Source: Sipunculus nudus
Taxonomy: Eukaryota > Annelida > Sipuncula > Golfingiida > Sipunculidae
DNA length: 64,000 bases
Assembly: GCA_026874595.1 (NCBI GenBank)
Contig: CM049316.1
Span: 17,321,839-17,385,838, forward strand
Direction of reading: 5' to 3'
Part shown: one piece after another, positions 2,441 through 61,639 of the stretch
Layout: every line of letters starts with the position of its first letter
Position numbering within the stretch: the stretch's first letter is position 1
The notes under the pieces: generated by a model
Told to the model about the DNA's origin: nothing
Database searches by the model: none
What the model saw: only the letters and a program-made list of their open reading frames with translations
Made by a program: the position numbers and the translations under genes

Positions 2441-3194
2441 CTAACAAAGGACTTGTACATAGCGGATCATCTTCAGCCCTGGTTAAGCTCAGACACAGAC
2501 CAAAGGACAAAACAAACGCTAAGCGTGAGGTGCTATAGAGCACTGTCGTGTTCAGAAAATGCTTTTATCAAAAGAGAGTTGAGAGCTGAGAGTTGTATAG
2601 GCATTGCAGAGTGATACGACAGGGAAGGCTACGAGTCTATCGGTCTGTGTTTTGGTGATTTCCTATGAGAGAGAGAGAGATACTTTGTTAAGCCAGTGTT
2701 TGGGGAAAATGGGGAGAGGCGCTTGTGTATAGTGTATGACGTGTTAACTACATGAACACAGGAGAACATTCTCTGGACGTTACTTGCGCAACGGTCATGT
2801 GACCAGCGGCTTTAGTGTTCTAAGATACGTTCCGTGTTGTGTTGACACATCAAACCACCAAATTAAACAGGACTCTGTGATTGTGATTATGTATATGAGA
2901 CTCAACTATCTCAATTCCCCCTTATAAGAACCTTGAAGTAGATTCCTTTGGGTGTGTGAAACATACACACACGCATATATACGTATATATTTATCATCTG
3001 GGTCGGGCTATTTGATATAGGGGACATTTTACATATATAATTATTCCGTCCTTGTATATAGGATCAACTTGTTACAATACGTGTTATGAATAACAATGCA
3101 CTTAACACAATAATATATCTTGTCACATATGTTGTTACTCGCTTGGTCGAAATGGCCAGCTCTATGAAATAATACCCATCTACTTTTGTTCCAG
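2441..3194. other. Unassigned spacer, perhaps intron of the GNAT gene
   Basis: No coding segment is recognised. A short GA run lies at 2665-2680 and alternating TA/CA stretches at 2958-2990. The stretch 2545-2925 has a somewhat LTR-like composition, but no paired repeat is present, so it is not called. The last bases form a splice acceptor, TTTTGTTCCAG, ending at 3194. Confidence 0.4.
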
Positions 3195-3910
3195 GTCACT
3201 GCGGGATAAGGTTAATAACAAAAGAGTTGGCATTTATATCATACTACATCACGCAGTCAAAATACAGAGGCAAAGGGATCGGCAGAAAGGTATTCGAGAC
3301 TTGCATGAAGAGGGTTGGCGATATCAATGTTGGTTTAAACGCAGCGGCCGACAAGCAGAGCATGTACGCAGCTGGAGGGTTTAATATATCCTCCTTCCAG
3401 ATGACTCGTTTTATTGGTACACCTAAATGTGACAAAGTTTCAAAACTGTTTGCTGCTGATAACATTAAGGTTGATGATATCGGAGCCATCAACATTTCAT
3501 CAATTGAAAACTATGATGATGGTGTCCACATAATTCCTCGTTATGATTTCCTGAAAAAGTGGTTTAAGAGAGAGGGAAGTGTATGTAAAGTTGCGCGAGA
3601 TGGAGAGAAAATCGTAGGTTACGGCTGTATGTGGCCAGCTGATTCCGGCTACAGGGTTTTGCCTCTCTATGTCGAGTCCAAGTCCGCTGGAATGCCATTA
3701 TGGAAAGAATTTTGCAGCAGAGCGCGTCCTGGAGAACCGATCGAGATAGCGGTGCCGTCACAGAATATTGAAGCTATCAAGCTTTTTACGGACACATTGG
3801 ACCTTGTGGCACCTCCGGTTTATCTGGTGCAAATGTTCACCCAGAATTACATCAAAGTCAATCTTGACCTGGTTTATTCCGTGTCTAGCTACGAAATCAA
3901 TCTTGTTTAA
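3195..3910 (+). CDS. GNAT-family N-acetyltransferase, last coding exon
   Basis: An open frame of 237 codons runs from a splice acceptor (TTCCAG ending at 3194; first base completes a split codon) to TAA at 3908-3910. The first visible residues are HCGIRLITKELAFISYYI. The acetyl-CoA-binding motif A is SKYRGKGIGRKVFE, followed by VGLNAAADKQSMYAAGGF, a standard GNAT core. The second half (GEPIEIAVP, NIEAIKLF, YLVQMFT) resembles the C-terminal domain of two-domain holothin/YitH-like acyltransferases. Proteins of that type transfer an acyl group from acyl-CoA to an amine; the substrate here is unknown. About 70 N-terminal residues of the first domain are missing and must lie on exons upstream, outside the window or lost. 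The exon itself has no stops or frameshifts, so it is either functional or recently orphaned. Confidence 0.8.
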
Positions 3911-6174: not shown

Positions 6175-6488
6175 ACCGGCTTCTGTGGCTCAGGGGTAGA
6201 GCGCAGGACTCAAAGCCGGGTGATAGTGAGTTCGAATCTCAGCCGAGGCGGTGAGTTTTTTCACGGTCGGCCCCCACCCAGGGTGAGCGCTCTGCAGGCT
6301 TAATGGGAAGGTCGTGCCCAACGACCGTGTTTCATTCACAAACGAGTGCACCTTTCGGGGGTCCTCGGTGGTATGATTACCATCCCAGGGCCCGCAGGTG
6401 CAGTAGTCACCGGGCCCGGTTAACGCCAGGATATAAAATAAGAGGAAGCGTGTGATACTGCCCTGTAACGTAGTCCGAAACCGGAATG
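6175..6488 (+). mobile_element. tRNA-derived SINE with 13-bp target duplication
   Basis: The 5' part is tRNA-like. It has an A box TGGCTCAGGGG at 6186-6196 and a B box AGTTCGAATCT at 6229-6239, spaced as in a polymerase III promoter. A GC-rich tRNA-unrelated body follows, without a poly(A) tail. The copy is bracketed by perfect 13-bp direct repeats GTTACCGGCTGGT (6162-6174 and 6489-6501). It sits inside a monomer of the AACGTT array, whose other copies show the uninterrupted sequence. Good promoter boxes and perfect duplications point to a fairly young insertion. Confidence 0.85.
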
Positions 6489-7018
6489 GTTACCGGCTGG
6501 TTCATGACAACATTGCTTTGAAACGTTATGCAAACATTTCAAGAACTGTAATCATAATATATTTTTTATAATAAATATGTCAAATTAACTAATGCCAGTT
6601 TTTTATACTTCACCTAAAGATGTATAAAATCTTTCGCAATACAGAATCTATGTTCTTTAACAATTCTTAAACCCTGTTTAATTTTATTCCTATCGGTAAC
6701 GATCTGACAACATTAAAAAAACGATTTCCTAAAAAATTAAAGGTTCTCATTAAGTATGGAAACAACATTGTATTCAAACAAATACCCTTCTTAGACTCAA
6801 AATAAATTTTAGGATATTTTAACAGAAGAATAATTAAAGCCTTCAGAATATAGAATTACAGTTGTTTAATATTACTTCAGTTGTTTTGTTTTTTGGTTAC
6901 CAGTAACGTTCTTAAAACATCTTCAAAACAATTTCCAAGCAAGGATAGACGTTAACAGTTTGTTTTATGACTATACATTGCTTTCAAATGTTAAGCAAAC
7001 ATTTCACGAATTGTTATC

Positions 7019-7020
<2 letters not shown>

Positions 7021-7066
<46 letters not shown>
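7021..7066. repeat. (TA)n microsatellite
   Basis: Pure TA tract inside the AACGTT satellite array. Confidence 0.95.
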
Positions 7067-7069
<3 letters not shown>

Positions 7070-7904
7070 ACAAATATGCTATATTAACTTACATCAGTCT
7101 TTTATAATTCAGATGTACAAAATCCTTAGCAATCGACAGGCAATGTTCTTTTACAATAAATAGGGCCTATACCCTAGTTGATTTTTTTTAACGGTAACGT
7201 TCTAACAACATTAAAAAAATTCCTACAAAACTTAAAAGTTCTCATCTAGTATGGAAACAACATTGTTTTCAGACGTAAAACAAACATATCATTTACATGA
7301 TACGTTGTATAATATTTTAATTTGCTGCAAATATCCTCCTTTAACTAAAATTAAAATGTCTGATATTTTATCTCGAGAATAATGTAAGCTGTCATAATAC
7401 ACTATTACTGTAGTTTAATTAATATAACTTCGGCTGTTTTGTTTTTGGTCACCAGAAACGCTCATAATAGGTTTAAGTATACAAGCTGGTTTATGACTAC
7501 ATGGCTTTGAAACGTTAAGCAAACATTTCAAGAACTGTAATCATAATATATTTTTTGTAATAAATATGTCAAATTAACTAATACCAGTTTTTTATACTTC
7601 ACCTAAAGATGTATAAAATCTTTCGCAATACAGAATCTATGTTCTTTAATAATTCTTATACCCTGTTTAATTTTATTCCTATCGGTAACGATCTGACAAC
7701 ATTAAAAATCGATTTCCTAAAAAATTAAAGGTTCTCATTAATATGGAAACAACATTGTTTTCAAACGTTTAGCAAACGTTTCATTTACGTCTTATTTAAG
7801 TATAATATATTAGTGGCAAATATCCTTCTTAGACTCAAAATAAAATATATGTCATTTTAGTTGAAGAAAAATAAAAGCCCTCTCAGTGCACAATTTAGGA
7901 TTAA

Positions 7905-8386
7905 ACCATCAAAGGCCGACATACGTCTCGACACAGCGCGACACTGACCGACACAGTAATCAGGCGACACTTACAATGGTTGTGTCGCCTAGTGGATACT
8001 CTAGTGTGTCGTGCAGTAGCAAACCGACATACTCGCGAAAAAAAATATAGGGTTAACCAAACGGATATTGCCGGTGGTTGTGTCGGTTTGCGTCACCTAG
8101 CGTGTTGTGTGATGAATAAATTTGTGTCGCGCGTTCAAACACACTGCACGATCTGTCTTGTGTCGCGACATGCCGACGCAACCATACCCGGCCTTCCATC
8201 GCACGACAAATCTATGCATATGTTCGATTGTGCCGTGCAGTCCGCGTTGCAAAGCCGACAATGTCCTTATGTCTTGTGCTTCTCCACGACGTGTCCTGTG
8301 GCTTCGTCACCGCCGCGCCAAAAGCTGACGTCGCGACATACTGGACGTTATCTGTGTCGCATCACACGCGTGTCGGCCTTGATGGG
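7905..8386. mobile_element. piggyBac-like MITE with TTAA target sites
   Basis: A 482-bp GC-richer block is flanked by TTAA at 7901-7904 and 8387-8390. Its ends are inverted repeats: left ACCATCAAAGGCCGACA, and right, read inward on the other strand, CCCATCAAGGCCGACAC. TTAA duplication is the hallmark of piggyBac (and some Kolobok) elements. The interior is densely filled with variants of TGTCGC/GCGACA and a TGTCGCGACATG palindrome. Open frames of 136, 68 and 69 codons cross it in different frames; with no recognisable motif and overlapping frames these look like by-products of stop-poor, GC-rich repeats. Confidence 0.75.
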
Positions 8387-8469
8387 TTAATTAATTCACG
8401 CCTTTATCATTACTTCAGATATATATGTTGTTTCTAGTTAACTGTAGGCATAACGTTCTTATAACATAC

Positions 8470-8845
8470 TGAGGTTGGCTTCAAATTCGCGGGGTTAAAA
8501 TTTCACGATCTTCACAGTTTCAATGTTTCGCGACGGTTTCATTTTCGCGATCTTGCCGTTAAAAAAGCCTCCACAAAATAAATCATAATTATATTAATGA
8601 ATTATACAAAATAAAACGGGCGATAATCTTAATAATTAGACAAAAACCATCAAAAGAGTTTATATCATTGTTTATTGATACCAGATAATATAACAAATCT
8701 GAAATAATTGATTATAGCAACCTTTAAACATGCAAGATCTTATTATTTATGTTGAACATGAATCATTTAGCCTTTGACTTGCTTTCCGCGATGGGACTCT
8801 TATTCCCCTTTCGCGAATATCACGAATTTGAAACCCTGCCGATCA
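8470..8845. mobile_element. TTCGCG-type MITE
   Basis: The left end reads GGTTGGCTTCAAATTCGCGG and the right end, on the opposite strand, GGCAGGGTTTCAAATTCG. The subterminal parts share TTTCGCGA motifs in inverted order around an AT-rich core. The target duplication was not resolved. The adjoining sequence is AACGTT satellite. Confidence 0.5.
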
Positions 8846-9442
8846 AAAAAGCAACAACAGTATTGAAAACAATGTACAAGCAAGGACAGAAGTTACTTGA
8901 TGGTTTTAAGACAACATTGCGTTCAAACGTTAAGCAAACCTTTTAATAACTTTCATCATAATATATGTATTTTTATAACGAAGATGCTAAATTAGGTAAT
9001 GCCAGTCCTTTATACTTCACCTTAAGATGTGTATAATCCTTCACAATATACAGAGTAATGCTCTTTGACAATACTTAAACTGTTTGATTTTTTTGTTATC
9101 AATTACGTTCTAACAACATTTAAAAAATATATTTTCCTTACAAAAATAAAGATTTTCCAATTAGTTTGAAAACCGCTCAGACGTTTAGTAAACATAAAGA
9201 GTTACGTATTATTTAAATAATATTATTGATCATTTTTGCATACCATGATAACCATGAAATGTGTTTACTGAAAATTGAAAGTATATTGTCGATAGCAATG
9301 TGATTGACTCGTTTTCAAAGCGATCATTTATAGTTTCGAGATGAGTAAACACTTGACCCCCACCATATCAGTCCAGCAACACAGAATGTAGCCCAGGCAT
9401 CACATTTATTACAGCCACTGTTGAGACGGTATGGATAAAACC

Positions 9443-18461: not shown

Positions 18462-19631
18462 CCTTCCAGACGGGTACATGCCGGTTTGCCGAATGCCGGA
18501 ATGCCGACTACCACCATGCCGATTCCTTTTTGCCGAAACGCCGGTCTGCCGACTGTGTCAATAAAACTGTAATATGAAGATGGTTTGGGGATATGATGCA
18601 TGAAATACATGCTAATGACCAAAATTCATAATGTTGTATGTTGAATAGGAGGAAATAGTTGTATCTGAGGCTGGAATTTGAAGGTGCAAAGCAGGACTCG
18701 GCAATAGCTTGCGGGCCCAAGTGTCATGGCCGACTGACTTCACCCACGCCCGGCAGTCGGCAAGTCCGCTGACCATACACAGCCAGGTCAACATGAAAAA
18801 GGAAGGCTTCCTCAGACAAATTAAACCGTTATTAATGGTCATATTTTACATTGTGTTTGCTTTGTGGAAGCATAAATACGATAAGAAAAGATATGTAAAA
18901 GGAATGTTAGACCGATCGTGGAACGAAATCCTTTATTGTATATTTTTTTCGAATTAGAGCGGACGTGAAAATGGTTCTGTTGGATATTTACAAATAAAAA
19001 AAACTGCACACTGCATTATTTAGTGATGAATATTATAATGCACATTAATCAGCACTCTTCTATTACTGATACATTTTAAATAAAATTTATGAATCAACTG
19101 AACTATTCTGATTACGGAATTCAGCAGATAATCTTGGGATCTTCAGTTAATATTCAACGGTCGGCTACTGGATGTGTCACAAACATGAACACACTGTTCA
19201 GTTGTATTTTATTTCGATATATTGTTAAAGTGTTCCATAGTACCATGAAGATGTATAATATTATGAGATACAACATTTTTAAAATTAATAGTATCTGTAC
19301 AATGAATATATTTTAGCGGTCCATGTATTCCAACACAGTCTATGGACATCAAAAGGAAACATTTTGATTTCGGGGTCTACTTAATTAGGGGATCAATGGG
19401 AGGGTAATTAGGAGTAACCATGGCCTTTTGATTGTTGAAACAACACCGGGGTAACTGATTTATCAAATGTAACCGAGAGCCATGTTCACTGAAGGGGAAC
19501 GATTATTTACTAATCCTTTTCCGGTGCATATTTCTTATTTCTTGAGAGCAATTTTCAGATTGAGAGGGATCGAAATCAATTTAACATTATATGAGAGAAA
19601 GAAAGACAGATAGCGATATCAATATAATTTT

Positions 19632-19634
<3 letters not shown>

Positions 19635-19681
<47 letters not shown>
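19635..19681. repeat. (GA)n microsatellite
   Basis: AG tract within the left half of the foldback element. Confidence 0.95.
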
Positions 19682-19684
<3 letters not shown>

Positions 19685-19835
19685 TTATGAGAGAGAATTC
19701 AAAGTAATATTCAAAAAGAGAAAGATCGCAATAAAAATAATACGTATTAATTGTTAGAGAGGACACAAAAAGTGTTTTAAAGAAAAAAGTATATAATTCT
19801 TTATTTTATACAAGAGAGCTTATGTTGTGTACATA

Positions 19836-19837
<2 letters not shown>

Positions 19838-19879
<42 letters not shown>
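19838..19879. repeat. (GA)n microsatellite
   Basis: Second AG tract within the foldback element. Confidence 0.95.
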
Positions 19880-19881
<2 letters not shown>

Positions 19882-20102
19882 TGAAAAGAGAGAGGGGAGA
19901 GATAACTTTATTTATAATATTAAATATACATTTGTTAGCGAGGAATATATAAGTATTAATGTGTATTATAATACAATCGGAATTGAATTATAATGAATAT
20001 AAATGAAGAATTAGGATGTTTATTTATTGTACGGAAGAGTATAATATATAGGCCTATACATTGTATATATATATACATGGTATATGTGCAATCATGGGAA
20101 CA

Positions 20103-20360
20103 AAAATCACCGTCTGCAAAAATAATTTACTGATATGAACAAGTAAATTATCATCATGTGACACATTTTTATACACGCAGGAATCGCCGTCTGCTGAAAT
20201 AATTTACTGATATGTACAAGTAAATCATCATCATGTGACACAATTTTATACACGCAAGAATCGCCGTTTGCTGAAATAATTTACTGATAGTACAAGTAAA
20301 TCATCATCATGTGACACATTCTTATACACGCAAGAATTGCCGTCTGCTGAAATAATTTAT
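20103..20360. repeat. Three tandem copies of an approximately 82-bp unit
   Basis: Each unit contains CGTCTGC(T/A)(G/A)AAATAATTT, ACTGATA, AAGTAAATCATCATCATGTG and ACACATT..TATACACGCA in the same order. The units form the centre of the foldback element. Confidence 0.9.
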
Positions 20361-21246
20361 AATATTATATTAGTCTCTCTCATAATATTTTACTGATCGC
20401 TCTATATCACTCATCATAACATATTGACCTCTCTCTAAACTAGAATGTTATATTAGTCTAGCTCTCTTTCATAATGTTATTTTTCTCTCTCAATATTAAC
20501 TCTCTCTCTCATATTGTTGCCCTTCAGTGAACATAGATACCAATTACTCACAATGAGTCCGTTACTCTGGTGCTGTTTCAACAATCGATTGGTCACGGTT
20601 ACTCGTAATCCCATTGATCCATTAATTAACAAGAAACACATGAAACACAGAAGCATTAGCTATTTGATATTTGCCGTTTGACGATCCGTCGATCAGGTGT
20701 TACCATATGTATATAGTATTATGCTCATGCATCCATAGAGAAAACAGCATATATTTTCAACACTGTTTACGGTTTTTTAATTGATTTTGCTTGACCAAAA
20801 GAAGCTATTCTTCAGCCGACTTGCCGACTGCCGGGCGCGGGTGAAGTCAGACGGCCATGACGCATGGACCCGCCTAGGCTATTGCCGAGTCCTGCTTTGC
20901 ACCTTCAAATTCCAGCCTGAGATACAACTATTTCCCCATATTCTGCATAAATCATAATGAAATTTAGTCATTAGCATGTATTTCAAGCATCATATCCCGA
21001 AACCACCTTCATATTACAGTTTTATTGACACAGTCGGGAGACCGGCGTTTCGACAAAAAGGAATCGGCATGGTGGTAGTCGGCATTCCGGTTTTCGGCAA
21101 TCAGGAATGACACCCTTCCAGACCATATAGTACGTGAAGGGTACAGAGGGACATCAATATAGTGGTGCCCCCCTCCCCAACTTTTTGACAAGAGGGGGAT
21201 GGTCAATGTAATCCTCCTCTCCCCACCACACTATTCAGAGATATTA

Positions 21247-21342: not shown

Positions 21343-21485
21343 TTTATTGCAAATGATATATATTAACAAATAGAATTAAAGACTGGTTCCATTTATGAGT
21401 TTACTATGAAATGCAGGGTTGGAGCCAGGTACTTGTACCTGTACCTGGATGAGTACCTAGGTACACAATTCAGATATAATTATAC

Positions 21486-22466
21486 CAAGGAGTTTACAGG
21501 ACTGGAGTAACAACTGTCAGAAGCCCTGCCAGGTCGCGAGTGTCAGTCGTGCGCTAATTGCAATTAAGACATGATAAGCCCATTAACTCTATTGTACGCC
21601 TATTGTTCCGCGGTGTCAGGCGCAGCGGCGGCACGGCCTTTGATAAAGCGAGCCTGCTAGATGTTACTTCTGCGGTCCGCTGTAGCTCGCTGAAGCGGAG
21701 AGCGATATATCCAGTAACTGAGCAGTAAATCACTGGAATAACATTGACCGGAATTATGAATGCGCAAATGGTTTGTTTTGTCAAGAATTATGCGCAACAA
21801 ATATATCTAGAGAGGTCTCGTATTGAGGAATCACTTGACCAATTTTTGGATAGATGCGGACACTCTACATCAACTTATGCCGTGATTCATGATGGACGAC
21901 TGATAAGTGTAAACCTTACTTTCCCTGAATAACTTCGGAATTATAAAAAATTCCATCAGTTCCCACACTTCTGACTTATATTAATAATTGGCCATGTATT
22001 ATAGTATTCCGACGATAAAAAAAATTTTTTTAGCTTATGCTCGGATGACTTTCATTTTGATGGATAACAGCGAGCCATTGTCCGCTCTGTCACTGACGGC
22101 GTTGTTCTCGTATTATCGCCCATATGTACCGCAGCCAAGCTATAGCTCAGGCGTCATTAGCAACGAAACCTTCACACACGTTTCCCACACATATGGAAAT
22201 ATGGTGTTCAAACTTATGATTGTTTAAATATTTATATTAAGTACTACCGGAGATAAATTTCGCGTTAGTTCACATTGGTGGTCTCCGGGAACTAACGAGC
22301 TGTTCCGAAGTCACGCCGAAGGGTGGTCTCTCGCGCTGAATCAATTAGCGCCGGGCTTATCAGCGGCATCTCTATGTGCCATTGAGCAGCGAGTTTTATG
22401 ACCCCCGTCAGCAACATCCGACACGGCCAGACTCTCACTTGATACTCCATCCCTGTAAACTCCTTG
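21486..22466 (+). mobile_element. 981-bp inverted-repeat element, copy 1
   Basis: The ends are CAAGGAGTTTACAGG...CCTGTAAACTCCTTG; the terminal inverted repeats extend about 30 bp with a few mismatches. A perfect 7-bp target duplication ATTATAC lies at 21479-21485 and 22467-22473. Subterminal zones share GCGCTAATTG and GATAAGCCC in inverted order. Termini fit the hAT consensus YARNG, but a 7-bp duplication is unusual for hAT; P-like and Dada-like elements also make 6-8-bp duplications. The superfamily is left open. Three short frames (76, 62 and 79 codons) show no recognised domain, so it is probably non-autonomous. Confidence 0.85.
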
Positions 22467-22473
22467 ATTATAC

Positions 22474-23693
22474 AAATGTGATACTAGAAATGGACATCAG
22501 GCTTGGGTCAGTTACATATACAAAACTGTCACGTGACTGTCAGAGCAGTTAAATACTAGTATCTTAATTAGGCATGTCTCTGGCATTCAACCCTGCTGCC
22601 TTTGTAGCTGGCTATGCAGACAAGCTGGTCAACCTTCAGCCTATAAAGAAGAAGTTCATTGTGGTTTAATCAGCACAAGTATAGGGCAATTAACAAAGGA
22701 TAGGAACAGTACTGCCTACTTTCCCCATTTAGACAGTTGTCTTATATGTCACAGAACAGGGTTGGTGCCAGGAACTTGTACATAGGCACACAAATCACAG
22801 TAATGTGAATTATACAGCCAGGTAATGATACTGGCAAGGGACATCAGGTTTGGCCAGGTAGTGTACTGAACTGTCACCTCTGTCATGGCTGTTATCTTAA
22901 CCAGGCAGGGGTAATTACTGAGCTTTCATCCCTGCAGCCTTTTACATTGAGTGGGCCAGAGCTGGCCTGGCTAGCTCCAGCATCCACAGTTCATAGTGAC
23001 ATCAGATATAAAGGGTACAGACCAAAGGATATGGACAGTGTTGTTTACATGCCCAATGTAAGATACCTGTTGTCTAATATACAAAGAACATTGTTGAAGG
23101 ATAAATGAAGAAGTGATGATACATATTATAAAACTGAACTCTCAACATATGCCAAAAAAGCAGAACATTCCATTTTACAGGAAAAAACAGTCCCTGCTCA
23201 AGCATCAAATGCAGGTGCTCTTTTATAATTTGTAAAACATTCATCAGTATGACCTTCTGCAATTAACATATTTATTTACTTCTTATTTTGTATAGATAAT
23301 TGTCATGAAGTTAGTATAGGTAATATTTGTTGAAAGATTTTCCCTTTTAGTTCAGCAATTAAGCCTCATTATTTAAAGTGTGTCGTGGTTTTAGATATTT
23401 TGACTTCAAAACAAAATTCTGAAACTCAAAACTTGATATAAAATATACATCATATTTTAGTATATGAATGAAATCTGCCATTATATTATAACTTATTTTC
23501 ACTTAGATTCAATTTATGCACTTATCATTAGTTCAAATGTCTTAAAAATGTACCTGTACCTTTACCTAGGAACTTTCTAAAGTACCTGTACCTATAGGTA
23601 CCCTACAAAAATGCTGTACCTGTACCTGGACCTGTACCTGACCATTGCACGAGTCTGTGTACCTGTACCTAGTTACTGTCACATGTACCTATC
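22474..23693. other. Body of the hAT-like element after the nested copy
   Basis: It contains the repeated phrases GACATCAGG, CTGTCAC and CAACCCTGCTGCC/CATCCCTGCAGCC at two places, then AT-rich DNA, then the GTACCT-rich right end (23540-23690). Confidence 0.5.
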
Positions 23694-23902
23694 CCCAACC
23701 CTGATGAAATAAAATATCTAAACCTGATTTAAAATTAATTTATGCATGAAACATTATACCTTTTTTTTCTATAATATTGTAATTTATTGTAATATATTTG
23801 AAATGTGATAAAGTATGTATATTTGAAATGTGCCATATGAAAGGTATATATTTGTTACAGTCAATTAATAAAATCTGACAATTTGTAAATTGTCTGAACT
23901 TT

Positions 23903-23926
23903 TCAGGTAATTTATAAATTACCTGA
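23903..23926. repeat. Perfect 24-bp palindrome
   Basis: The arms are TCAGGTAATTTA and its exact reverse complement. Related imperfect palindromes precede (GACAATTTGTAAATTGTC at 23877-23894) and follow, about 30 bp apart. Confidence 0.9.
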
Positions 23927-24559
23927 TTCACTCAGGCAATTCATAAAATGATTGAAATTTTCAGGTATTTTACAAATATTTGAAATATTGTTCAGTTTAT
24001 TTGACACATTTACTGAAATGTAAAAAGAATGAATATACTGTTGTTGTGTAATGAAAAAGGTTTAACTGATAAATCATTTATTTAATATACCAGAGTTTCC
24101 TAAAAAAAATTGAATTTTTTACAATATATTATATCATATTTTATTGTTTCATTTAATCGAAGTGTCCATTTGGCTTAATTCTGGTTCTTGAGAAATAATC
24201 ACGTAATTATATGAGATCTTAATAATATACTTTCTCAGGGGTGCAATGCAGTTTTCCTCTGTCAGGGTATTGTCCCTATCCCTCAGTGTGGGAATATTGT
24301 CACAATTATTTATAGAAATTTCATAATTTCAAAATTTTATTGTAGAAGCAATTTTATACATAATAACAGGAAATGTTCTCGATACAGGAACAAACAACAT
24401 ATGAACATATTTACTTAGCTGTTAGTTGGATAGCCTTGCATCACTATGTGTGGCAAATTATCTTTAGTATTTTCAGATTTTAACAGTAACATTCAATAAG
24501 CTTATTGTAATATACCAAAGTTAAAGTTGTGGGATACATGGTTTTTGCACAGTCCTGCT

Positions 24560-25550
24560 GCCGCCCCAGTAAAATCTTGTGAGTGAGATAACTCAAAATA
24601 TATTTCATGTGTAAATAACAATATTTACATGTGTATAGATAAGGGTATGAGGGTGAAACCTATTTAAAATGGTGTCATGACTTTCACTCGGAGAGTGACC
24701 TAGCTTGACTTTGCAGAAAATCATACAAATTCTCAAATATTTCAAGAAGCTTGCATAGATTGGTCCAAAAATTGAGTTGACCAAAGACCTTGGATATCCG
24801 TGTCATGTACCAGAAACACTTTGCAGCACCTATTGTCCTTTCTTGTTTTTGTGCCTTGTAATAGTCCATTTTTGCCACTAGAAAGTACAGTGAGCATTAT
24901 AAGTAAAAAAGGAATGAACAGATTTCTTTCATATCATGCACATACAAAGTGATCTGCGTTATGATGAAATCTATTTAAACTTTTTCATGACTTTTACCAT
25001 GAGAGTTGCCTTGACCTTGATTCAGTTTTTTCATATTTGGTGAACATCACACACCCTCTGTGATATCTCCAGTTTTTATTGATGTATGGATTTCAAACTT
25101 TATCATGTATGGCCTGTTACAACCCTATAGGTTTTAAGGTTATGAGGTCTTAGGTCAAGGTCACAGGACACATAAAAAATGTTGTGGATTGATTTTAAGC
25201 CAAACCTTTCATCCCAGACCTCCCATCTTGCATATGTAGCTTCAAAAAATTGTTTTGGGATGATAATTCCAGCTTGGATTAATATATGGATTTCATACTT
25301 GACTTCGGATAACTCCAGTTTGGATAAATATTTTGATATATGTGTTTCAAACCTGACATATATGGCCCACCACTAAAGCAAGAACCCTATTGATTTTGAG
25401 ATCAAACATCAAGGTCATAGGGCCCACACCTTGTAGTCCACACAACAAGATCATGGATGCATTTCATGCAAACATTTTCATCTCAGACCTTCAATCTTGC
25501 AAATCTGGCTGACCTGCCAATAGGAGAAACGAGGTTGAACATTTAAAAAT
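24560..25550 (+). repeat. Dispersed tandem repeat family with AGAGTG..CTTGACCTTGA blocks
   Basis: Units contain TTTCTTTCATAT, CATGACTTT, AGAGT.GCCTTGACCTTGA and later AGGTCAAGGTCACAGG. The same family recurs at 58250-59060, and the AAGGTCACAGG half recurs at 46790-47600. No coding potential. Confidence 0.65.
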
Positions 25551-25630
25551 TTTTTTTTTACATTTTGTCTTAAAATTTACTTATTGATTTGAATCAACTG
25601 ATGATAAATTATATATTTTCCTCAATTTTT

Positions 25631-25690
25631 AGCTAAGCTGACTGTAAGCATCTGAGCTTTAGCGATCACCCTTTGTCCGGTGACTCTGCA
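25631..25690 (+). repeat. Hairpin head of the dispersed element family
   Basis: AGCTAAGCTGACTGTAAGCA, then TCTGAGCTTT, then CACCCTTTGTCC. This is the same head as at 14310, placed directly before the minisatellite. Confidence 0.6.
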
Positions 25691-25699
25691 TTTTTATAT

Positions 25700-28600
25700 T
25701 GACAGAGTTTGCCGATTTGTCTTTCTAGGGTTAGTACCCATATCTTTGTGACAAGCATTTGTTACAACACAATGTGATGATTTGATGTCTTCCAAAAGTT
25801 TAGGTTTGTACCAGTATCCCTGTGATATTGATAAGCATTTTTTTCAGATGACAGAATTGATGATTTGTCTTTATAGGGTTAGTACCTGTGTCTTTGGGAC
25901 AAGCACTTTTTTATGACAGAATGTGATGATATGTTGTCTTTCACTGGTGAGGGTTAGTACCAGTATCTCTGTTTAAGCATTTTTCAAATGACAGAGTTTG
26001 ATGATTTGTCTTTCTAGGTTTAGGGTTAGTACCTGTGTCCTTGTGACACACTTTGATTATGGCAGAGGGTGATGACTTGTTGTATTTCAAAGGTTAGGGT
26101 TACTACCCCTGTCCCTGTATCAAGCACTTTTACTATGAAAGAGTGTGATGATTTGTCTTTGAAGGGTTAGGGTAAGTACACATATCCTTGTGACAAGCAC
26201 TTTTATTATGACAGAGTGTGATGATTTGTTGTCTTTTAAGGGTTAGGGTGAGTACCTGTGTCCCTGTGACAAGCACTTTAAACTTTTACAGTTTTATGAT
26301 GATTTGTCTTTTTTCAGGGGTTAGGGTGAGTACGCTGCCGCTTTAACAAGCACTCGATAGACTGATGATTTGATGTCTTTCTGTGTTTAGGTTGAGTACA
26401 TGTCGCTGTTACAAGCACTTTTACTATGACAGGGTGTGGTTATTTGTTATCTTTCTAAGGTCTGGGTTAGTACCCGCATCCCTGTGACTAGCACTTTTAC
26501 TGTGACAGGGTGTGGTTATTTGTTATCTTTCTAAGGTATTGGTTAGTACCCGCGTCCCTGTGACAAGCACTTTTACTGTGACAGGGTGTGATAATTTGCT
26601 GTCTTTCAAAGGTTAGGGTTAGTAAGAGTATCCCTGTGATAAGCTCACTTACTTTGACAGAGTGTGATGATTTTTATGACAGATTGGATGATTTGTTGTC
26701 TTTCAAAGGTAAGGGTTAGTACCACCAAGGAGTTTACAGGGATGGAGTATCAAGTGAGAGTCTGGCCGTGTCGGATGTTGCTGACGGGGGTCATAAAACT
26801 CGCTGCTCAATGGCACATAGAGATGCCGCTGATAAGCCCGGCGCTAATTGATTCAGCGCGAGAGACCACCCTTCGGCGTGACTTCGGAACAGCTCGTTAG
26901 TTCCCGGAGACCACCAATGTGAACTAACGCGAAATTTATCTCCGGTAGTACTTAATATAAATATTTAAACAATCATAAGTTTGAACACCATATTTCCATA
27001 TGTGTGGGAAACGTGTGTGAAGGTTTCGTTGCTAATGACGCCTGAGCTATAGCTTGGCTGCGGTACATATGGGCGATAATACGAGAACAACGCCGTCAGT
27101 GACAGAGCGGACAATGGCTCGCTGTTATCCATCAAAATGAAAGTCATCCGAGCATAAGCTAAAAAAATTTTTTTTATCGTCGGAATACTATAATACATGG
27201 CCAATTATTAATATAAGTCAGAAGTGTGGGAACTGATGGAATTTTTTATAATTCCGAAGTTATTCAGGGAAAGTAAGGTTTACACTTATCAGTCGTCCAT
27301 CATGAATCACGGCATAAGTTGATGTAGAGTGTCCGCATCTATCCAAAAATTGGTCAAGTGATTCCTCAATACGAGACCTCTCTAGATATATTTGTTGCGC
27401 ATAATTCTTGACAAAACAAACCATTTGCGCATTCATAATTCCGGTCAATGTTATTCCAGTGATTTACTGCTCAGTTACTGGATATATCGCTCTCCGCTTC
27501 AGCGAGCTACAGCGGACCGCAGAAGTAACATCTAGCAGGCTCGCTTTATCAAAGGCCGTGCCGCCGCTGCGCCTGACACCGCGGAACAATAGGCGTACAA
27601 TAGAGTTAATGGGCTTATCATGTCTTAATTGCAATTAGCGCACGACTGACACTCGCGACCTGGCAGGGCTTCTGACAGTTGTTACTCCAGTCCTGTAAAC
27701 TCCTTGGTACCACTATCCCTGTGAGAAGCCTTTTTACTATGACAGGGTGTGATGATTAGTTGTCATCAGGGTTTAGGGTCAGTACCTGTGTCCCTATGGC
27801 AAGCACTTTTACTAAGAAAGAATGTGATGATTTGTTGTCTTTCACTGGTGAGGCTTAGTACCAGTATCTCTGTTTAAGCATTTTTCAAATGACAGAGTTT
27901 GATGATTTGTCTTTCTAGGTTTAGGGTTAGTACCTGTGTCCTTGTGACACACTTTGATTATGGCAGAGGGTGATGACTTGTTGTATTTCAAAGGTTAGGG
28001 TTACTACCCCTGTCCCTGTATCAAGCACTTTTACTATGAAAGAGTGTGATGATTTGTCTTTGAAGGGTTAGGGTAAGTACACATATCCTTGTGACAAGCA
28101 CTTTTATTATGACAGAGTGTGATGATTTGTTGTCTTTTAAGGGTTAGGGTGAGTACCTGTGTCCCTGTGACAAGCACTTTAAACTTTTACAGTTTTATGA
28201 TGATTTGTCTTTTTTCAGCGGTTAGGGTGAGTACGCTGCCGCTTTAACAAGCACTCGATAGACTGATGATTTGATGTCTTTCTGTGTTTAGGTTGAGTAC
28301 ATGTCGCTGTTACAAGCACTTTTACTATGACAGGGTGTGGTTATTTGTTATCTTTCTAAGGTCTGGGTTAGTACCCGCATCCCTGTGACTAGCACTTTTA
28401 CTGTGACAGGGTGTGGTTATTTGTTATCTTTCTAAGGTATGGGTTAGTACCCGCGTCCCTGTGACAAGCACTTTTACTGTGACAGGGTGTGATAATTTGC
28501 TGTCTTTCAAAGGTTAGGGTTAGTAAGAGTATCCCTGTGATAAGCTCACTTACTTTGACAGAGTGTGATGATTTTTATGACAGATTGGATGATTTGTTGT

Positions 28601-29690
28601 CTTTCAAAGGTAAGGGTTAGTACCACTATCCCTGTGAGAAGCCTTTTTACTTTGACCGGGTGTGATGATTAGTTGTCATCAGGGTTTAGGGTCAGTACCT
28701 GTGTCCCTATGGCAAGCACTTTTACTAAGAAAGAATGTGATGATTTGTTGTCTTTCACTGGTGAGGCTTAGTACCAGTATCTCTGTTTAAGCATTTTTCA
28801 AATGACAGAGTTTGATGATTTGTCTTTCTAAGGTTAGGGTTAGTACCTGTGTCCTTGTGACAAGCTTTTTTACTAAGAAAGAGAATGATGAATTGTTGTC
28901 TTTCATTGGTTAGGGTTAGTACCCCTGTCCCTGTGACTAGCACTTTGACTATGACAGAGTGTGAGGATTTGTTGTCCTTCAAAAGTTAGGGTAGGTACCA
29001 GTTTTCCTGTTATAAGCATTTTTATAATGACAGAGTTTGATGATTTGTCTTATCCTTGTGACCAGCACTTTTTTATGACAGAATGTGATGCGTTGTTGTC
29101 TTCAAAAAGTTAAGGTTTGTATCAGTATCCCTGTGATAAGCATTTTTTTCTATGACAGAATTGGATGATTTGTCTTTCAAGGCTAAGGGTCAGTACCTGT
29201 GTCCCTATGGCAAGCTCTTTTACTAAGAAAGAATGTGATGATATGTTGTCTTTCACTGGTTAGGGTTAGTGCCTATATCCCTTGGACAAGCACTAAAAAC
29301 TATGACAGAGTGATTTGTTGTCTTTCATTGTTTAGGGTTAGTACCAGTATCCCTGTGGCAAGCACTTTTTCTATGAGAGAGTGTGATATATTTCAAAAGT
29401 TGGGTGAGTACCATGTCCCTGTTATAAGCACTTTTACTCTGATGGACATAGTTGATTTGATGTCTTTCAACAGTTAGGCTTAGTACCCGTTTCCCTGTGG
29501 GAATTAAGCTCTTTTACTTAGATTGAGTGTGATGATTTGTTGTCCTTCATAGGTTATGGGTAGTACCCCTTTCCCTGTATCAAGTATTTATACTCTGATA
29601 TGGTGTTATGATGTTTTGTCTTTCAGAGTTTTTGGGTTAGTTCCAGTGTCCCTGTGATAAGCACTTTCACTATGACAGAGTGTGATGATT
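25700..29690 (+). repeat. Minisatellite, unit 73-76 bp, with a 913-bp higher-order repeat
   Basis: Units read GGTTAGTACC, TGTGTCCCTGTGACAAGCAC, TTTTACTATGACAGAGTGTG, ATGATTTGTTGTCTTTCA. The array spans about 4 kb, of which 988 bp is the inserted 981-bp element plus its duplication. A block of about 913 bp (twelve units) is repeated almost unchanged: 25920-26725 continues after the insert and recurs from about 27830, and part recurs again from about 28740. No protein is encoded. Confidence 0.9.
26726..27706 (-). mobile_element. 981-bp inverted-repeat element, copy 2
   Basis: It is the same length as copy 1 (21486-22466), in inverse orientation, and every stretch compared is identical, including all three small frames. 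The 7-bp duplication GTACCAC lies at 26719-26725 and 27707-27713. The uninterrupted version of the target is present at 28620-28626 in the next higher-order unit of the minisatellite, which proves the boundaries. Confidence 0.9.
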
Positions 29691-35184: not shown

Positions 35185-36752
35185 GCTGGATAAAAAATAA
35201 AATAATGTTTTGAAAGATACATGTATCACATATATATTTCTCTCTGATGTTTTTTTTTTCAAGTGTCTTGATTTAACCTGAGATTAAGTGTTCACCAGCT
35301 CCCCTTGGAACTAAAAAATAGCTCATTAAAATGAAAAGGTATTAATTATATATAATGTACTAAAAGATTACAAGGCATGCACATGCACCCTGGGTAGAAG
35401 CCAGCTGCAGCTGTACTATGTCATTGTCGAGTACTGTCATCCAGCCATCTTGACCTTGCAAGGCCAGTCCCCAGCATCCCAGGTTACAGGAAGCATAAGA
35501 CACTTACAGTGCATAAATGCAGGGTCATTTCAAATGGAGTGGTTAACAGTTAGGAGGAATGAAGAGAACACAACTCATGTAAGCATATCCACCTATTTTA
35601 TTTGAGTTCAAAATATGTGAACAGAATATGCAAAATATCTTGTTAATATACTTGTCTGAGGATGAGGACTAACGGGTACTGTTTATATGTGTATGGACTT
35701 AGATGGCCTACAACACTAGGTATTTCCTCAAGTATATTTTTTTAGAATCATCATGCCTCATCCTTACTTATTATAAAATACATTTTTTTAACCATAAAAG
35801 TATTGTTATTGAAAATTTGATGATGCAAAGACTCATTCAACAGACTGAACTGTTATTCTGAAATATCCTTAAATATGGTAAACATCTTTCTATTTAGAAC
35901 CAAAATATCCTTTTTATTTCTGAATAGGATACATCTTTCTATTTAGATCAGCAGTATGCAGTTTCTTGTCATATATGACACCACTGTTATGTATTTATTT
36001 GGGGCATTTGTTGTTATGGCCTAAAAAGAATATTTTTTAAATTGTTTACAAACCATGTGCATCCATATTTATTCATTATTTATGAGTTTTATGTGTGCAG
36101 GAATTTTTAAAGTGTTATTTAATGTTGCCTTAAGAGTTGGAATTACCAGCAAATCTTGGAGAAAGTTACATATAAAACATAATGCACTGTTTGTCAATAG
36201 AAAATGTTCAGTGTTTCTGATTAATTTGCAGTTTACATTAAATTGAATTTCTTGCAATTTTAAAGTTATAGTACCTAAAGATCTTATAGAAAAATTCCAT
36301 GTCTGAAAAATATACTTATTTTACTATGAAAGAGGTCCTAAAAAATTACACAATACGATGTTTCTTGCAAGATCACTAAATTATTTTTTTTTTCTTTCCA
36401 GATAAAATCACCAGGATATATGATAGGTCCACCAAAGCTGCAAATATGAGACACAAGTTGAGTGACTGATTGAAGTCATTGTAAAGAAAACAAAACTAAC
36501 CAATATTTATTATAATTTTTTCAATAAATAATCAGTTTACTTCTTTTAGTGTTTTTCATTTATTACATCTATAAGCAGATGCAGGTGTGGCAATACTCTA
36601 ATATTCAAGAAGAAAAGGAAGGCAACGTTCTCAAAATATAGCTGATTGTTATGTTTATTCAGAAAATTAGAATTTTTACAATTTCAGAAAAATATTGCCA
36701 CAGAAATTCATTTACCAAAGGAAACCATCATGAAAGAATGGGGAAGCTGCAG

Positions 36753-36890
36753 AAAAACATATATGGAAACTGTTGAAGAAATCTGCGGAAAAGTGCGGAA
36801 GAAATCCTCGGAAAAGCGCGGAAAAACATATATGGAAACTGTTGAAGAAATCTGCGGAAAAGTGCGGAAGAAATCCTCGGAAAAGCGCGG
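36753..36890 (+). repeat. Perfect tandem duplication of 69 bp
   Basis: The unit from AAAAACATATATGGAAACTG to GGAAAAGCGCGG occurs twice with no visible difference, within the right arm of the foldback element. Confidence 0.9.
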
Positions 36891-37198
36891 AAACTGTGGC
36901 AGAAATCCACAGAAAAGTGCGGAAACTGCAGCAGAAATCAGCGGAAAAGTGTGGAAACTAAAGCAGAAATCAGCGGAAAAGTTCGGAAACTGCGGCAGAA
37001 ATCTGCGGAAAAGTGCGGAATCTACGGCAGAAATCCGCGGAAAAGTGCGGAAACTACGGCAAAAATCCGAAGATTTAGGATTTGGTGCTTTTTCCGAAGA
37101 ATTTTATAAATCTTTGGAAAAATGCTGTAGTCCCAATACTCAGAAATTCGCGGAAATCCGTGGATATTTTGCGGTTTCTTCAGAAAATCTACAGCTAT

Positions 37199-38450
37199 GC
37201 AGTGGGAGTTCTAGAAGTTAAACTGGCTCTTCCTGAAACCAAAGGCAAATCAGCCCCTGGTCTAGACAAACTCACTTACAAAATACTAAAGAAAATGCCA
37301 GACCCCTGTCTAAGGAGGATTGCAAACCTATACACGCTCTGCATTCCATCGGGATATTTTCCGATTTAATGGAAAAGGGCATTAGTAACCATGATCCCAA
37401 AACCTAACAAGACAACTGACAAACAGACAAATTTCAGGCCTTTCAGCTTGCTTCCCTGTCTGGGCAAGCTATTTGAAAAAAATCCTTAAAAATCAAATTA
37501 CTACATTCTTAGAGATTAGACCGGCCGAGCTGTGTGGCCCAATTTTTAATGATGACTAATCAGGCTTTCACTCAAGGAGATCAACGTGTGATCACATATT
37601 TCAGCTCAGTCAGGCCATTGCAATGGTATGAAACAAAGACAGCACAACTTAGCCACATTTCTTGATGTAGAAAAGGCCTTTGATGCAGTATGGTCTGACG
37701 GCCTCTGCATTTCAGTTATGAGATTCCATCTGGCACATAAACTAGTGAGGTTAATCTTAACAGGTAGATCCCCTTATGGTTAATCATAAAGGTACATAAT
37801 TTGAGAAGATTACGCTTGAAGCTGGGACTCCCCAGGGCTCAGTGCTGAGCCCTTTACTCTTAATCATGTATATTACAACCTTCCGAAGAAGGGACAAATG
37901 GTCAGCGTTTCACAATACGCTGATGACTTAGCTATCTGGGCCACTGGTTCCAAAGTTTGCTATTCACGCAACGCAGTCCAAGCCCAGCTCGCTCACATAA
38001 GCAACTAGTGCAACACCTGGAGAATCAAACTAAATCAAACAAAAACGGTTTTGTTTAGTAAAGCGTACAATCCAATATACCTTGAAGCTTAAAACTGTTA
38101 GATGAAAATTTAAAAGATTCTGAGGCTGCCAGGTTCTTAGGTGTAATTTTTGACAAAAAGCCACTCGGCGCTCATACATAGAGCATATAAGTCAACGAAT
38201 GTGGAGTAGGATTAATGCTCTAAATCTGTGTGCTATAAGAAGGAAGGACCTAAACTGGAGACAGCTGCAGGCTTTATATAAACAATGGATCTGCCCTATA
38301 GGCATAAAGGGAATCAATAGCTTTCTTAGGTGCAGTTAAGACAAATATATGAACTAGAAGTTTAACAGAATAAAGCCCTCAGAGCAGCCTTAAGAGTTAG
38401 TAGGTTCACTGAAACATCAAAACTAAGAGCACGCAAAAAAACACACCGAA
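37199..38450 (+). pseudogene. LINE ORF2 reverse transcriptase, broken
   Basis: The frame continues from the left side of the foldback element: EVKLALPETKGKSAPGLDKL, then ALVTMIPKPN, NFRPFSLLPCLGKLFEK. RT motif A FLDVEKAFDAVW is at 37658-37693, motif B GTPQGSVLSPLLL at about 37823-37861, motif C QYADDLAIW at about 37913-37940. The catalytic residues are present, but many stops and frameshifts separate the motifs. The motif style fits the Jockey/I group. Confidence 0.85.
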
Positions 38451-39385: not shown

Positions 39386-41480
39386 TCAGCTGACTGAAAG
39401 TTATCTGAGAAATAGCAGTCACACTCTGTCATCCGTCTGTCCATTAACAGGGCACAAATTGTAAACACTATAGCTAGAATCTTATAACTTGAAATCCACA
39501 TAGGTTCATGAAAAATCTCCTGGGAAACCTGAAATTAGGCCTCTGTTAAGCATATCCTCTGAGCTATGGGCTCACAACTAAGCCCTCCCCCAGGATAATT
39601 AAAAAATTGATACAAAGCTCCATTATCTGAACAACTAAAGCATTGATCACCATGATTTTCTGCATGCATATTGATCATGGTGTGTTTCATCAGTTAATGC
39701 GGACTGGTGGTACCAAGTGGAATTTTTTTTAATTTTGATGTATTTTTTCTTTATTTTTGAGACCTTCAAAGATATGGTCATCTGTTAACAGGACACAAAT
39801 CGTAAACATAGGACCTAGAATCTTTTAACATCTAGGGAGGCCCATGAAAAATCTCCATGGAAACAGAAATTAGGTCTCTTTTACCCTTATCCTTTGAGCT
39901 ATGGTTCTCAAAAGTACCCCCAGAACAATTAAAAATTTGTTACAAAAGCTCCAATATCTTAACAACTGATGCATTGATCACCATGATTCCTTGCAGGCAT
40001 GCATATTCATCATGGGTTTTTTCATGAGTTCCTGGAGACTGCTGGCACCACCTGGATATTTTTTTTTAATTTTACGCAATTTTTCCCAATTTTTGAGACC
40101 TTCAAAGATGCAGTCATCTTTAACAAATCATAATTAATCAACCTAGAATCTTGTAATTTAAGATGCAGGGAAGTCAATAAAAAATCTCCTTTGACACTTG
40201 AAAATAAGTCTTTGTTACCCATATTTTTTTAACTATAGGGCTTGTAAGTACCCCTCAGTATAATTGTATCCCCCAAAACAAAGTTTTGCGGATACTATGT
40301 TTTTGACTGGGTTCCCCCGCCACCCCGCCCCGCATTCGTTTCCAGAATTGAATCCTGAGACCACGGGATAGATTTTTCTGAAACTTTACACCATTATTGG
40401 GTCACATATGTATGTACTTGTGCCAAATTATTTTGCGTTGACCTCTGACCTTTCCTCTCTCCAGTGAGTCCATCTGTCAACTGTGCTGACACATTAACTC
40501 ACATATCCTTTTTTTGCAAAAATGTAGCCCTTGGATAGCTTTATAACATACACAAAATTGGTGGCACCACCTGCAACAATTTTTGCACAGCGTCGATCTG
40601 TTCATCTGCCTAAGGATAAAATCACTCCTATCTCTGCAGTGGTTGGACTTATCCACCTGAAATTTTGCATGTGTATACATCCTGGATAGCTGTCTTGATT
40701 TTATGACAGGTGGCGCCACCTACATTCACGTTCAGGCTGCAGACATCCAGGCTTATATCTCAGGACTAGCTTGACCTATTCCCTTGTAATTGTGCATGTG
40801 TATACATCTCACATATCTCTTTATCATACACAAAATTAGTGGCGCCTCCTGCAACCATTTTTGCACAGCGTCCATCTGTTTGTCTGCTGTTGGATAAAAT
40901 CACTCGTATACAAGCAGTGGTGTGACTTATCTGCCTAAAATTTCGCATATGTATACAACTTGGATTGCTTTCTGGATTTTGTTGCAGGTGGCACCACCTA
41001 CATACACATTTCGGCTGTAGACATCAATGCTTATATGCAACACACCTCACTCTATATCCCCTTGCCACTCAATCCATGCCTCACTTCACACATCCCACTG
41101 ATTTCAGCGGATACACGTAATTGTTTGTCAACGTACCCGTATTCTAGTTGAAAATATGATACAAAACCTCCATTTTCTGAACAAATGCATTCATCATCAT
41201 GATTCATCATGGAATGTTTCATCATTTCCTGTAGACTGGTGGCGCTACCTTGATTTTATTTTTTTTAAATTTTGCATTTTCTTCAAATTTTTATTTTTGA
41301 GACCTTAAAAGATGCAGTTGTCCTTAACAGGGCACAAGTCATAAACATTGCACCTAGAATCTTCATACTTGACATTCAGGGAGGGCCATGAAAATTTCCT
41401 TAGAAATTTAAAATTAGGTCTCTGTTACCCATATCATCTGCGCTATGCTTCAGTTGAATGAGGATACCACCTACAAAATT
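39386..41480 (+). repeat. Hairpin-headed array of about 335-bp units, split by a Helitron
   Basis: The head GCTCAGCTGACTGAAAGTTA and then TCTGAG (39386) is followed by CATCCGTCTGTCC. Units start near 39443, 39785, 40120 and 41325, each with TTAACAGG.CACAAAT, CTAGAATCTT, AGGG(A)GG.CCATGAAAAAT, AATTAGG(C/T)CTCTGTT and ATTGATCACCATGATT. The last interval is 335 bp only after subtracting the Helitron. A related unit occurs at 46360. Confidence 0.85.
40269..41147 (+). mobile_element. Non-autonomous Helitron, complete
   Basis: It begins with TC (TCCCCC, 40269) after host A and ends with CTAG (41144-41147) before host T, as Helitrons do. A short stem-loop (around GTAATTG..CAACGTAC, 41117-41135) lies about ten bases before the CTAG end. 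The 5' end also has a small hairpin (AAAACAAAGTTTT). The insertion splits one unit of the 335-bp array. The body carries two or more related blocks with GGTGGCGCCACCT and CTCATATCTC. No helicase is encoded. There is no target duplication, as expected. Confidence 0.8.
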
Positions 41481-41874: not shown

Positions 41875-43520
41875 CTAGACGACCAGAGGTCGACCGCTTG
41901 CCGGAAGTGAAATGACAGACGGATGGGCAGACAGAACATATTGTGGGTTTTCTATTATTTGAATGACCCTCAGCGTTTGCTGAGAAGTTGTGGCCTGTAA
42001 AATGACATCAGACAAAACAACGAGGAAGCAGACAAAGCTGACCACAAAAGACTAACAGACAGACATACTGACATATCTGTGATAACAGATTACCAGACAA
42101 AAGTGCCGAAGGTAAAGAATAGCAAAATTAGCGAGAGTTTATGTAGATAAGGTTTATAATTTTGGAGATATAGCCAAAACATGATATGTTGGGGAGGTGA
42201 AGGTGCAGCGCCCCCTAGTGGCTATATCCGGAAAATGAAAAATCTGTTTTGAGATATTAGTGTAAAACATAAGATGTACCAGTTTTAAAAGGATTCCTGA
42301 AAAAAAAAACCGTGGCCTGTAGAATGCTATATATGAGACGCAAGAACCAGCAAGTAGGCGGATTTGACAAACTGACAAACAGACAGACACACTGACAAAG
42401 TGACACAAGACTGAGACCAGATGACATTACTAGGTCATGGAGAAGATTCAGGGAAAGAAAATAAGCCATAGTTTCTGTAATTGAGGCTTTGGGTTTTAGA
42501 GATGTGGTCAATATAATGATATGTGTGTGAGGGTCAGGTGCAGCGCCATCTAGCGGCCATATCCGGAAAATGAAAAAATAATTTTGAGATATTTTTGTAA
42601 AATATAATATGCATCAGTTTTCAAATGCTTCTTTAAAAACTGTGGCCTGTAGAATGCTATATGCGAGACGCAAGAATCAGCAAGCAGCCAAATTTGAGGA
42701 CAACTGACAAACAGACGGACACACTGACAAAGTGACACAAGATTGAAACCAGATGACATTATCAGTTTATGGAGAAGACTCAGAGGGAAAAAATAAGCTA
42801 TAGTTTATGTAATTGAGGCTTTGGGTTTTAGAGATATGGCCAATGTAATGATATGTGTGTGAGGGTCGTATGCAGCACCCCCTAGCAGCAATATTCAAAA
42901 AATGAAAAAAACATTTCGAGATACTAGTGTAGGACTTATGATATGTCAGTTTCAAAATGATTCCTGCAATAATGTGGCCTTTGGCGCAAGATGAATGAAA
43001 TCTCGAAATATCTCTATTCACGAGATATTTTACGAGATACTGCAAGACTTGTAATAAAATCTTATAGTACTAGTTGAATGCTACCTGATGCAAAAAAACT
43101 AGATCACTCTAGCTTTAAAACTGACAAAGTTAGAAAAATAAGACCCCTTATTTTCGAATATCATGACTTTTCCCCAAAAATTTGTAACCATGGTTACGGC
43201 AAATTTAAGTCAGCTACACACCAGATGACAGGCCTTGGAATGACGATTAAAATGAGCTATTGTTGAAGTAGATATGACTATTAGTCACAAAGATATGAAG
43301 AAAAAACCGTTTTGAGAAGTTTTGATGACCTTGACCTTGACCTTTGACCTATTTTGACCTAAAACAATAGGGCACCTAGAAATTTAATTCTCCATCATCT
43401 CTGAAAGTTTCAAGGTGATTGTGGCAAAATTGTGGCCAGGAGAGTGCAGAAAACAAACAGACAGACAAACAGACAAACAGACATACGCAACTGACCAATA
43501 TGCTTGCCGAAATCTTTGAT
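41875..43520 (-). mobile_element. Probable second Helitron family, minus orientation
   Basis: On the minus strand the 3' end is CGACCTCTGGTCG, a 5-bp stem with a TCT loop, then T and CTAG, followed by host T. The opposite end has a longer hairpin built on GCTTGCCG/CGGCAAGC (about 43500-43525). The exact 5' TC is not fixed. The interior holds three units of about 310 bp (42160-43020) with CAGCGCC.CCTAG, TATCCGGAAAATGAAAAA and GTGGCCTGTAGAATGCTATA. Confidence 0.5.
42160..43020. repeat. Tandem repeat, about 310 bp, three units
   Basis: GGCTTTGGGTTTTAGAGATA, ATGATATGTGTGTGAGGGTC and the CAGACAGACACACTGACAAA stretch recur at about 310-bp intervals. Confidence 0.85.
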
Positions 43521-61435: not shown

Positions 61436-61639
61436 TTCCATATTTCGTGTGACTAGATTATAAATAAGCTGTCATTGCATATATTGGACCCATAGAAAAA
61501 ATAAAACATTTTTTTTTCAAAATTTTAGGAATTGTTATGTTAATTATATTGCTTATACTATTAGAAACATTTGTATGCGGTGTCAGAACGTCGTTATGTT
61601 TGGTCATCATTGGGCAATACTCAATAGTTTTAGTTATTT

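Follow-up and report, generated by a model that had tools for sequence, protein, structure and literature searches.

The DNA analysed here is a stretch of 64,000 nucleotides from contig CM049316.1 (the window), in which a 981-bp element occurs twice in opposite orientation, as copy 1 at 21486..22466 on the plus strand and copy 2 at 26726..27706 on the minus strand, with a separation of 4.26 kb. When copy 1 was compared base by base with the reverse complement of copy 2 (each 981 bp), 0 of 981 positions differed. Each copy is bordered by its own target-site duplication (TSD), which is ATTATAC for copy 1 (21479..21485 and 22467..22473) and GTACCAC for copy 2 (26719..26725 and 27707..27713). Comparison of the flanking repeats found both TSDs to be perfect and exactly 7 bp long, with the adjoining base mismatched on both sides, and by chance alone seven bases would agree at the given ends of a copy with a probability of about 1e-4. 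The landing sites comprise AT-rich DNA and a minisatellite, the latter (25726..29690, plus strand) being a 76-bp repeat array that hosts copy 2 and in which a unit of about 913 bp is duplicated. The paralogous target of copy 2 stands uninterrupted in the neighbouring unit at 28620..28626, where 10 bases on each side are identical to the flanks of copy 2. The 76-bp units also contain a telomere-like GGGTTAG, and the duplicate of the ~913-bp unit is 98% identical over 300 bp and agrees at 748 of 750 positions beside copy 2.

Almost certainly a non-autonomous DNA transposon has inserted here twice by cut and paste, in separate and recent events, because different perfect duplications adjoin identical elements of opposite orientation. 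A fixed duplication length in independent insertions, which is a feature of cut-and-paste transposons with terminal inverted repeats (TIRs), was found in both copies (7 bp in 2/2). The initial annotation had described identical 981-bp inverse copies, each with a perfect 7-bp duplication of its own, and had read them as independent recent insertions rather than one inverted duplication, with an empty site for copy 2 in the next minisatellite unit; our comparisons bear out all of these claims, recency being indicated by the zero differences and by CpG that is not depleted.

Several other parses of the locus were rejected. An inverted duplication of one element plus its surroundings does not agree with TSDs that differ between the copies. 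Inversion by recombination between the copies was not recorded either, each copy keeping its own matching 7-bp pair; in a Galileo case of inversion, the 7-bp sequences are swapped between copies. An 8-bp TSD was discarded on the grounds that the 7-bp repeat is not extendable in either copy, and a 5-bp TSD, possible for copy 2 alone, breaks the common element end. A plasmid or phage origin was likewise set aside, with no match in the plasmid and phage collections and with the longest open reading frame overlapping either copy at 80 aa. As an event, the pair is of an ordinary kind, and represents a new family at most.

The sequence CAAGGAGTTTACAGG stands at all four element termini and has no other match in the window with up to 3 mismatches allowed, and a BLAST comparison of the element with the remainder of the window gave 11 matches, the best at an E-value of 0.63. 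The shared ends given in the initial annotation were thus found at every terminus, while the TIR proved to be longer than the 15 nt implied there: it extends over 31 nt, of which 27 match, the outer 15 being perfect. At positions 16-31 of the TIR 12/16 bases match, a level that random pairs drawn within the element reach in a fraction of 0.00017, and beyond the TIR agreement falls to 6 of the following 29 positions, which is background. In copy 1 the left TIR occupies 21486..21516 (plus) and the right TIR 22436..22466 (minus); the TIRs of copy 2, with positions transferred from copy 1, lie at 26726-26756 and 27676-27706. The motif CAAGG is present at 4/4 element ends.

Further inside the element, two 10-mers form subterminal inverted repeats, each occurring once per strand within 66-125 bp of the element ends. 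GCGCTAATTG lies 66-75 from the left end (21551..21560, plus, in copy 1) and 116-125 from the right end (22342..22351, minus), and TGATAAGCCC lies 87-96 from the left end (21572..21581, plus) and 105-114 from the right end (22353..22362, minus). Among 2000 shuffles of the subterminal stretches none contained two shared words of at least 10 bases and 25 contained one, a test that flatters the result to some extent, as word length and stretch were fixed after the inverted pairs had been listed. By analogy, these repeats are candidate transposase-binding sites: the binding site of the Galileo THAP domain is placed ~70 bp from the end, and those of P at 53-63 and 41-51. Single-strand folding of the element gave a z-score of -3.16 (20 shuffles), which was not used as evidence because the terminal repeats by themselves lower the energy.

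The element appears to be non-autonomous, as no domain was found in the frames scanned. Eleven frames of 40 aa or more overlap copy 1 (79 aa at most), and one of 80 aa overlaps copy 2 at its end. A Pfam scan of 5 of the 11 copy 1 frames gave no match above the curated cut-off, and one below it (E 0.099). In a scan of 117 frames from the window, each 60 aa or longer, five families were matched (E up to 0.01) and no P-type or hAT domain was found, with the limit that a gene with introns could escape such frame scans. The window has 245 frames of at least 60 aa, of which the Pfam scans together cover 118 by letters and 122 by coordinates; 111 of the 117 scanned frames are letter-identical to listed frames, and the other 6, though drawn from that list, do not agree letter for letter, perhaps because of the first codon. 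Because the element frames scanned hold no recognised domain, the transposase is most likely encoded elsewhere.

A transposase supplied in trans from elsewhere in the genome would bind the 31-nt TIRs, and probably the subterminal inverted repeats too, after which the element would be excised and inserted into a target whose strands are cut 7 bases apart, and repair of the staggered target would leave the 7-bp duplication. Such events would have taken place separately and recently for the copy at 21486 (plus) and the copy at 26726 (minus), the latter in one of two paralogous minisatellite units. As to the enzyme, we tentatively favour a P-superfamily transposase of the type with 7-bp duplications known from 1360 and Galileo, acting on a long MITE-like (miniature inverted-repeat transposable element) cut-and-paste transposon; in any case, P deserves at least equal weight with hAT as the superfamily of the element. 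The comparisons with known systems draw on PMC4168063, PMC2775673, PMC7776569, PMC3276498, PMC3942097, PMC3573991, PMC4455052, PMC3688188, PMC8869645, PMC4079207, PMC3212995, PMC8230255, PMC10983969 (a preprint), PMC1562414, and PMC10294476.

The 7-bp duplication is within the range of the P superfamily, in which 1360 and Galileo make 7 bp and P makes 8 bp. In insertions of 1360 (Hoppel/ProtoP) of Drosophila melanogaster, a P superfamily member, 7 bp is the modal duplication (274/279), as in our element, although the target motif of 1360 is GTTNAAC where the element has ATTATAC and GTACCAC. Galileo, also of the P superfamily in Drosophila, likewise makes 7-bp duplications (consensus GTANTAC), which were found at most copies in D. 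willistoni; no functional copy is reported among the latter, a likeness to our non-autonomous element, whereas the TIRs of Galileo are very long and internally repetitive compared with 31 nt here. The length of the TIR is that of Drosophila P (31 bp), and subterminal inverted repeats, which are typical of the superfamily but not demonstrably defining and are present here as the two 10-mers, occur in P elements as 11-bp repeats ~100 bp inside and in zebrafish Pdre2 as 12-bp repeats. The P elements of Anopheles gambiae have TIRs of 27-31 bp that are imperfect in two clades (8 and 6 mismatches), comparable to 27/31 here. Ten P-derived MITE families are described from Anopheles, with sizes, judging by their names, of 205-675 bp and in one case 2450 bp; these are non-autonomous like our element and have middles unrelated to the P master, but their duplications are 8 bp against 7 bp here. 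Pdre2 (the THAP9 element) resembles the element in an end that begins with CA and in combining a short TIR with subterminal inverted repeats, and differs from it in an 8-bp duplication and a 13-bp TIR of other sequence.

A number of observations weigh against assignment to P. The P elements of Drosophila, Anopheles and zebrafish all make 8-bp duplications, and scans of 5 of the 11 element frames and of 117 window frames found no transposase. Over its first 11 bases the element end agrees with that of Pdre2 at 4 positions only, although this was the sole printed P end compared and the ends of P members differ, so that the comparison tests close kinship only. The subterminal repeats GCGCTAATTG and TGATAAGCCC stand in reversed order at opposite element ends, and they were selected by position from 8 inverted pairs in the element altogether. 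If the host is a mollusc, it also counts that P is not named in the curated list of a mollusc survey; the same survey found 16 of 17 superfamilies as open reading frames, with P among those sought. To these may be added the fit of the element ends to hAT, the high rank of hAT in the mollusc survey and part of the target-site comparison, all three taken up below.

Motifs known for P superfamily targets were compared with the two TSDs. The Galileo core GTANTAC agrees at 4/6 and 5/6 specified positions (GTACCAC 5/6), a joint result reached by a fraction of 0.00027 of random window pairs, and a composite P/1360 motif agrees at 6/10 and 8/10 (fraction 0.000085). Agreement with the 13-base Galileo motif is lower (5/10 and 6/10), with a fraction of only 0.011. 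In both TSDs the second base is T and the sixth is A, as in a fraction of 0.097 of the 7-mers in the window. The test is a weak one and does not decide between P and hAT, because there are two sites only, the motifs were chosen after the sites had been seen, and hobo, a hAT element, is described as preferring GTNCGNAC, which is similar to P-type target motifs.

Mobilisation of the same non-autonomous element by a hAT transposase with a 7-base stagger is possible, though we regard it as somewhat less likely. The end motif of hAT elements is YARNG, to which the CAAGG of our element conforms. In this the element is like hobo, BuT2 and the hAT MITEs, among which short non-autonomous copies are known, and its TSDs share T2 and A6 with NTNNNNAN, a motif cited for hobo. 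If the host is a mollusc, a further point is that hAT ranks as the second richest superfamily of DNA transposons in the mollusc survey. Against it stand the duplications of hobo, BuT2 and the hAT MITEs, which are 8 bp with ends of 10-25 bp, compared with 7 bp and 31 nt here; both values are given for hAT generally, and for hobo the 8-bp duplication was found in 1196/1198 insertions. The 8-bp length was seen in 0 of 2 copies of our element, which we did not treat as excluding hAT because a Repbase paper names “7-bp TSD” as a possible annotation of hAT families. A 31-nt TIR together with subterminal inverted repeats is also less expected from hAT. The initial annotation had called the ends hAT-like, an assignment that we do not consider established, since CAAGG matching YARNG and the shared T2/A6 are all that speak for it, and the 7-bp duplication, the 31-nt TIR and the subterminal repeats agree no less well with the P superfamily, which the initial annotation does not mention. 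It was right that 7 bp departs from the 8 bp usual for hAT, yet this length is known in P-superfamily families and also appears in the Repbase paper as an annotation for hAT.

The age of the insertions can be bounded from the identity of the copies, as 0/981 differences correspond to a divergence below 0.305% at 95%. Between copy 2 and its paralogous minisatellite site, the flanks show 4 differences in 800 positions on the left and 2 in 200 on the right, with 13 mismatches and 2 gap columns when extended to 850 on the left, and 9 and 2 at 250 on the right; the closest 750 bp of the neighbouring units contain 2 differences. Zero differences in 981 positions have a probability of 0.003 at a rate of 6/1000, and of 0.07 at the rate of the closest 750 bp. 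The element copies are no older than the duplication of the minisatellite unit, and because of the latter probability they are not clearly younger. The comparison of element and flank divergence, which the initial annotation had named as a check, agrees with it for copy 2 as far as the flanks do differ and the elements do not, while falling short of setting the insertions clearly after the unit duplication.

The CpG content of the element is consistent with short exposure to methylation decay. Its observed/expected ratio is 1.14, against 0.50 for the remaining window, and the ratios of the minisatellite (0.17) and of the sequence separating the copies (0.16) are lower still. Among the 981-bp flanks of the two copies, three of four are poor in CpG (0.06, 0.20 and 0.24), and the left flank of copy 1, which is mostly within another repeat, has 0.77. 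A ratio of at least 1.14 was found in 14 of 306 segments of element length; over the whole window, such segments fall in 6401-9381 and 61401-63181. The first of these regions reaches 1.6 and is possibly CpG-island-like or a young repeat region, and the CpG-rich stretch at 61.4-63.2 kb reaches 1.72.

These data also bear on whether the insertions are older, with the inverted copies kept identical by gene conversion, an explanation that would be compatible with any superfamily. The copies are only 4.26 kb apart and the neighbouring minisatellite units are also alike (2 differences in 750 bp), which would suit conversion, but undepleted CpG in the element (1.14 against 0.16-0.17) amid mostly CpG-poor surroundings indicates youth without it, as do the perfect TSDs, and we consider it improbable.

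With the P superfamily still as the tentatively favoured source of the transposase, an enzyme from another or undescribed superfamily (neither described hAT, P nor Dada) with its own fixed 7-base stagger appears unlikely. Element patterns longer than 15 bp gave 0 matches in the genome contigs and 0 in the viral contigs of the bacterial, archaeal, phage, plasmid and viral collections, and the 15-bp end was found in 39 stretches of viral contigs, with a single match in each, taken as chance. The same 15-bp end, searched on one strand, was absent from the open-licence literature searched, and matches to the 12-base end on one strand in three open-licence papers were judged unrelated from their listing. 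The lack of a match in sequence collections or text may seem to favour an undescribed superfamily, but in bacterial, archaeal and viral collections a match was not expected anyway, and every feature of the element is paralleled among P or hAT elements, none demanding another source. A Dada element is very improbable: its 6-7 bp duplications would fit in length, but many Dada families are described as inserting specifically in multicopy RNA genes, whereas the landing sites here are AT-rich DNA and a minisatellite, and in the window no RNA gene was found (no Rfam match at the gathering score and no tRNA).

As it stands, the element is a normal young non-autonomous transposon. Two identical copies within 64 kb, one of them with an identical empty site in the neighbouring unit, indicate that the family has recently been mobile in the genome, though two copies are too few to show it to be active and poorly described, as the initial annotation had suggested. 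Should the 7-bp stagger hold genome-wide and a P-type transposase be its source, the 7-bp branch of 1360 and Galileo would extend beyond Drosophila to another animal group, and the family would offer a system for studying the change of stagger between 7 and 8 bp.

Adjoining copy 1 is another repeat, a 2644-bp element at 18472-21115 with long inverted arms (232 nt at 91% and 62 nt at 90%) and further inverted stretches inside. It is flanked on both sides by TTCCAGAC (8 bp, or 9 if the last base is shared), and may be a foldback-like DNA transposon, perhaps of Mutator or hAT type.

Elsewhere in the window, tandem repeats of ~32 bp at 36646-37218 hold an open frame on each strand (191 and 131 aa), the plus-strand frame having no Pfam match. 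Tandem arrays of 255-, 332- and 335-bp units lie at 61641-62473, 42160-42931 and 39507-40125, and long dinucleotide repeats are also present; together with the reverse-transcriptase element described below, these point to an animal host, perhaps a marine invertebrate. An open frame at 3173-3910 (plus) matches GNAT acetyltransferases (Acetyltransf_18, E 5.9e-10; Acetyltransf_1, E 2.8e-8). A long interspersed nuclear element (LINE) at 48911-51625 (minus) encodes endonuclease and reverse-transcriptase domains and DUF6451 in one frame, with an in-frame stop at 50924-50926.

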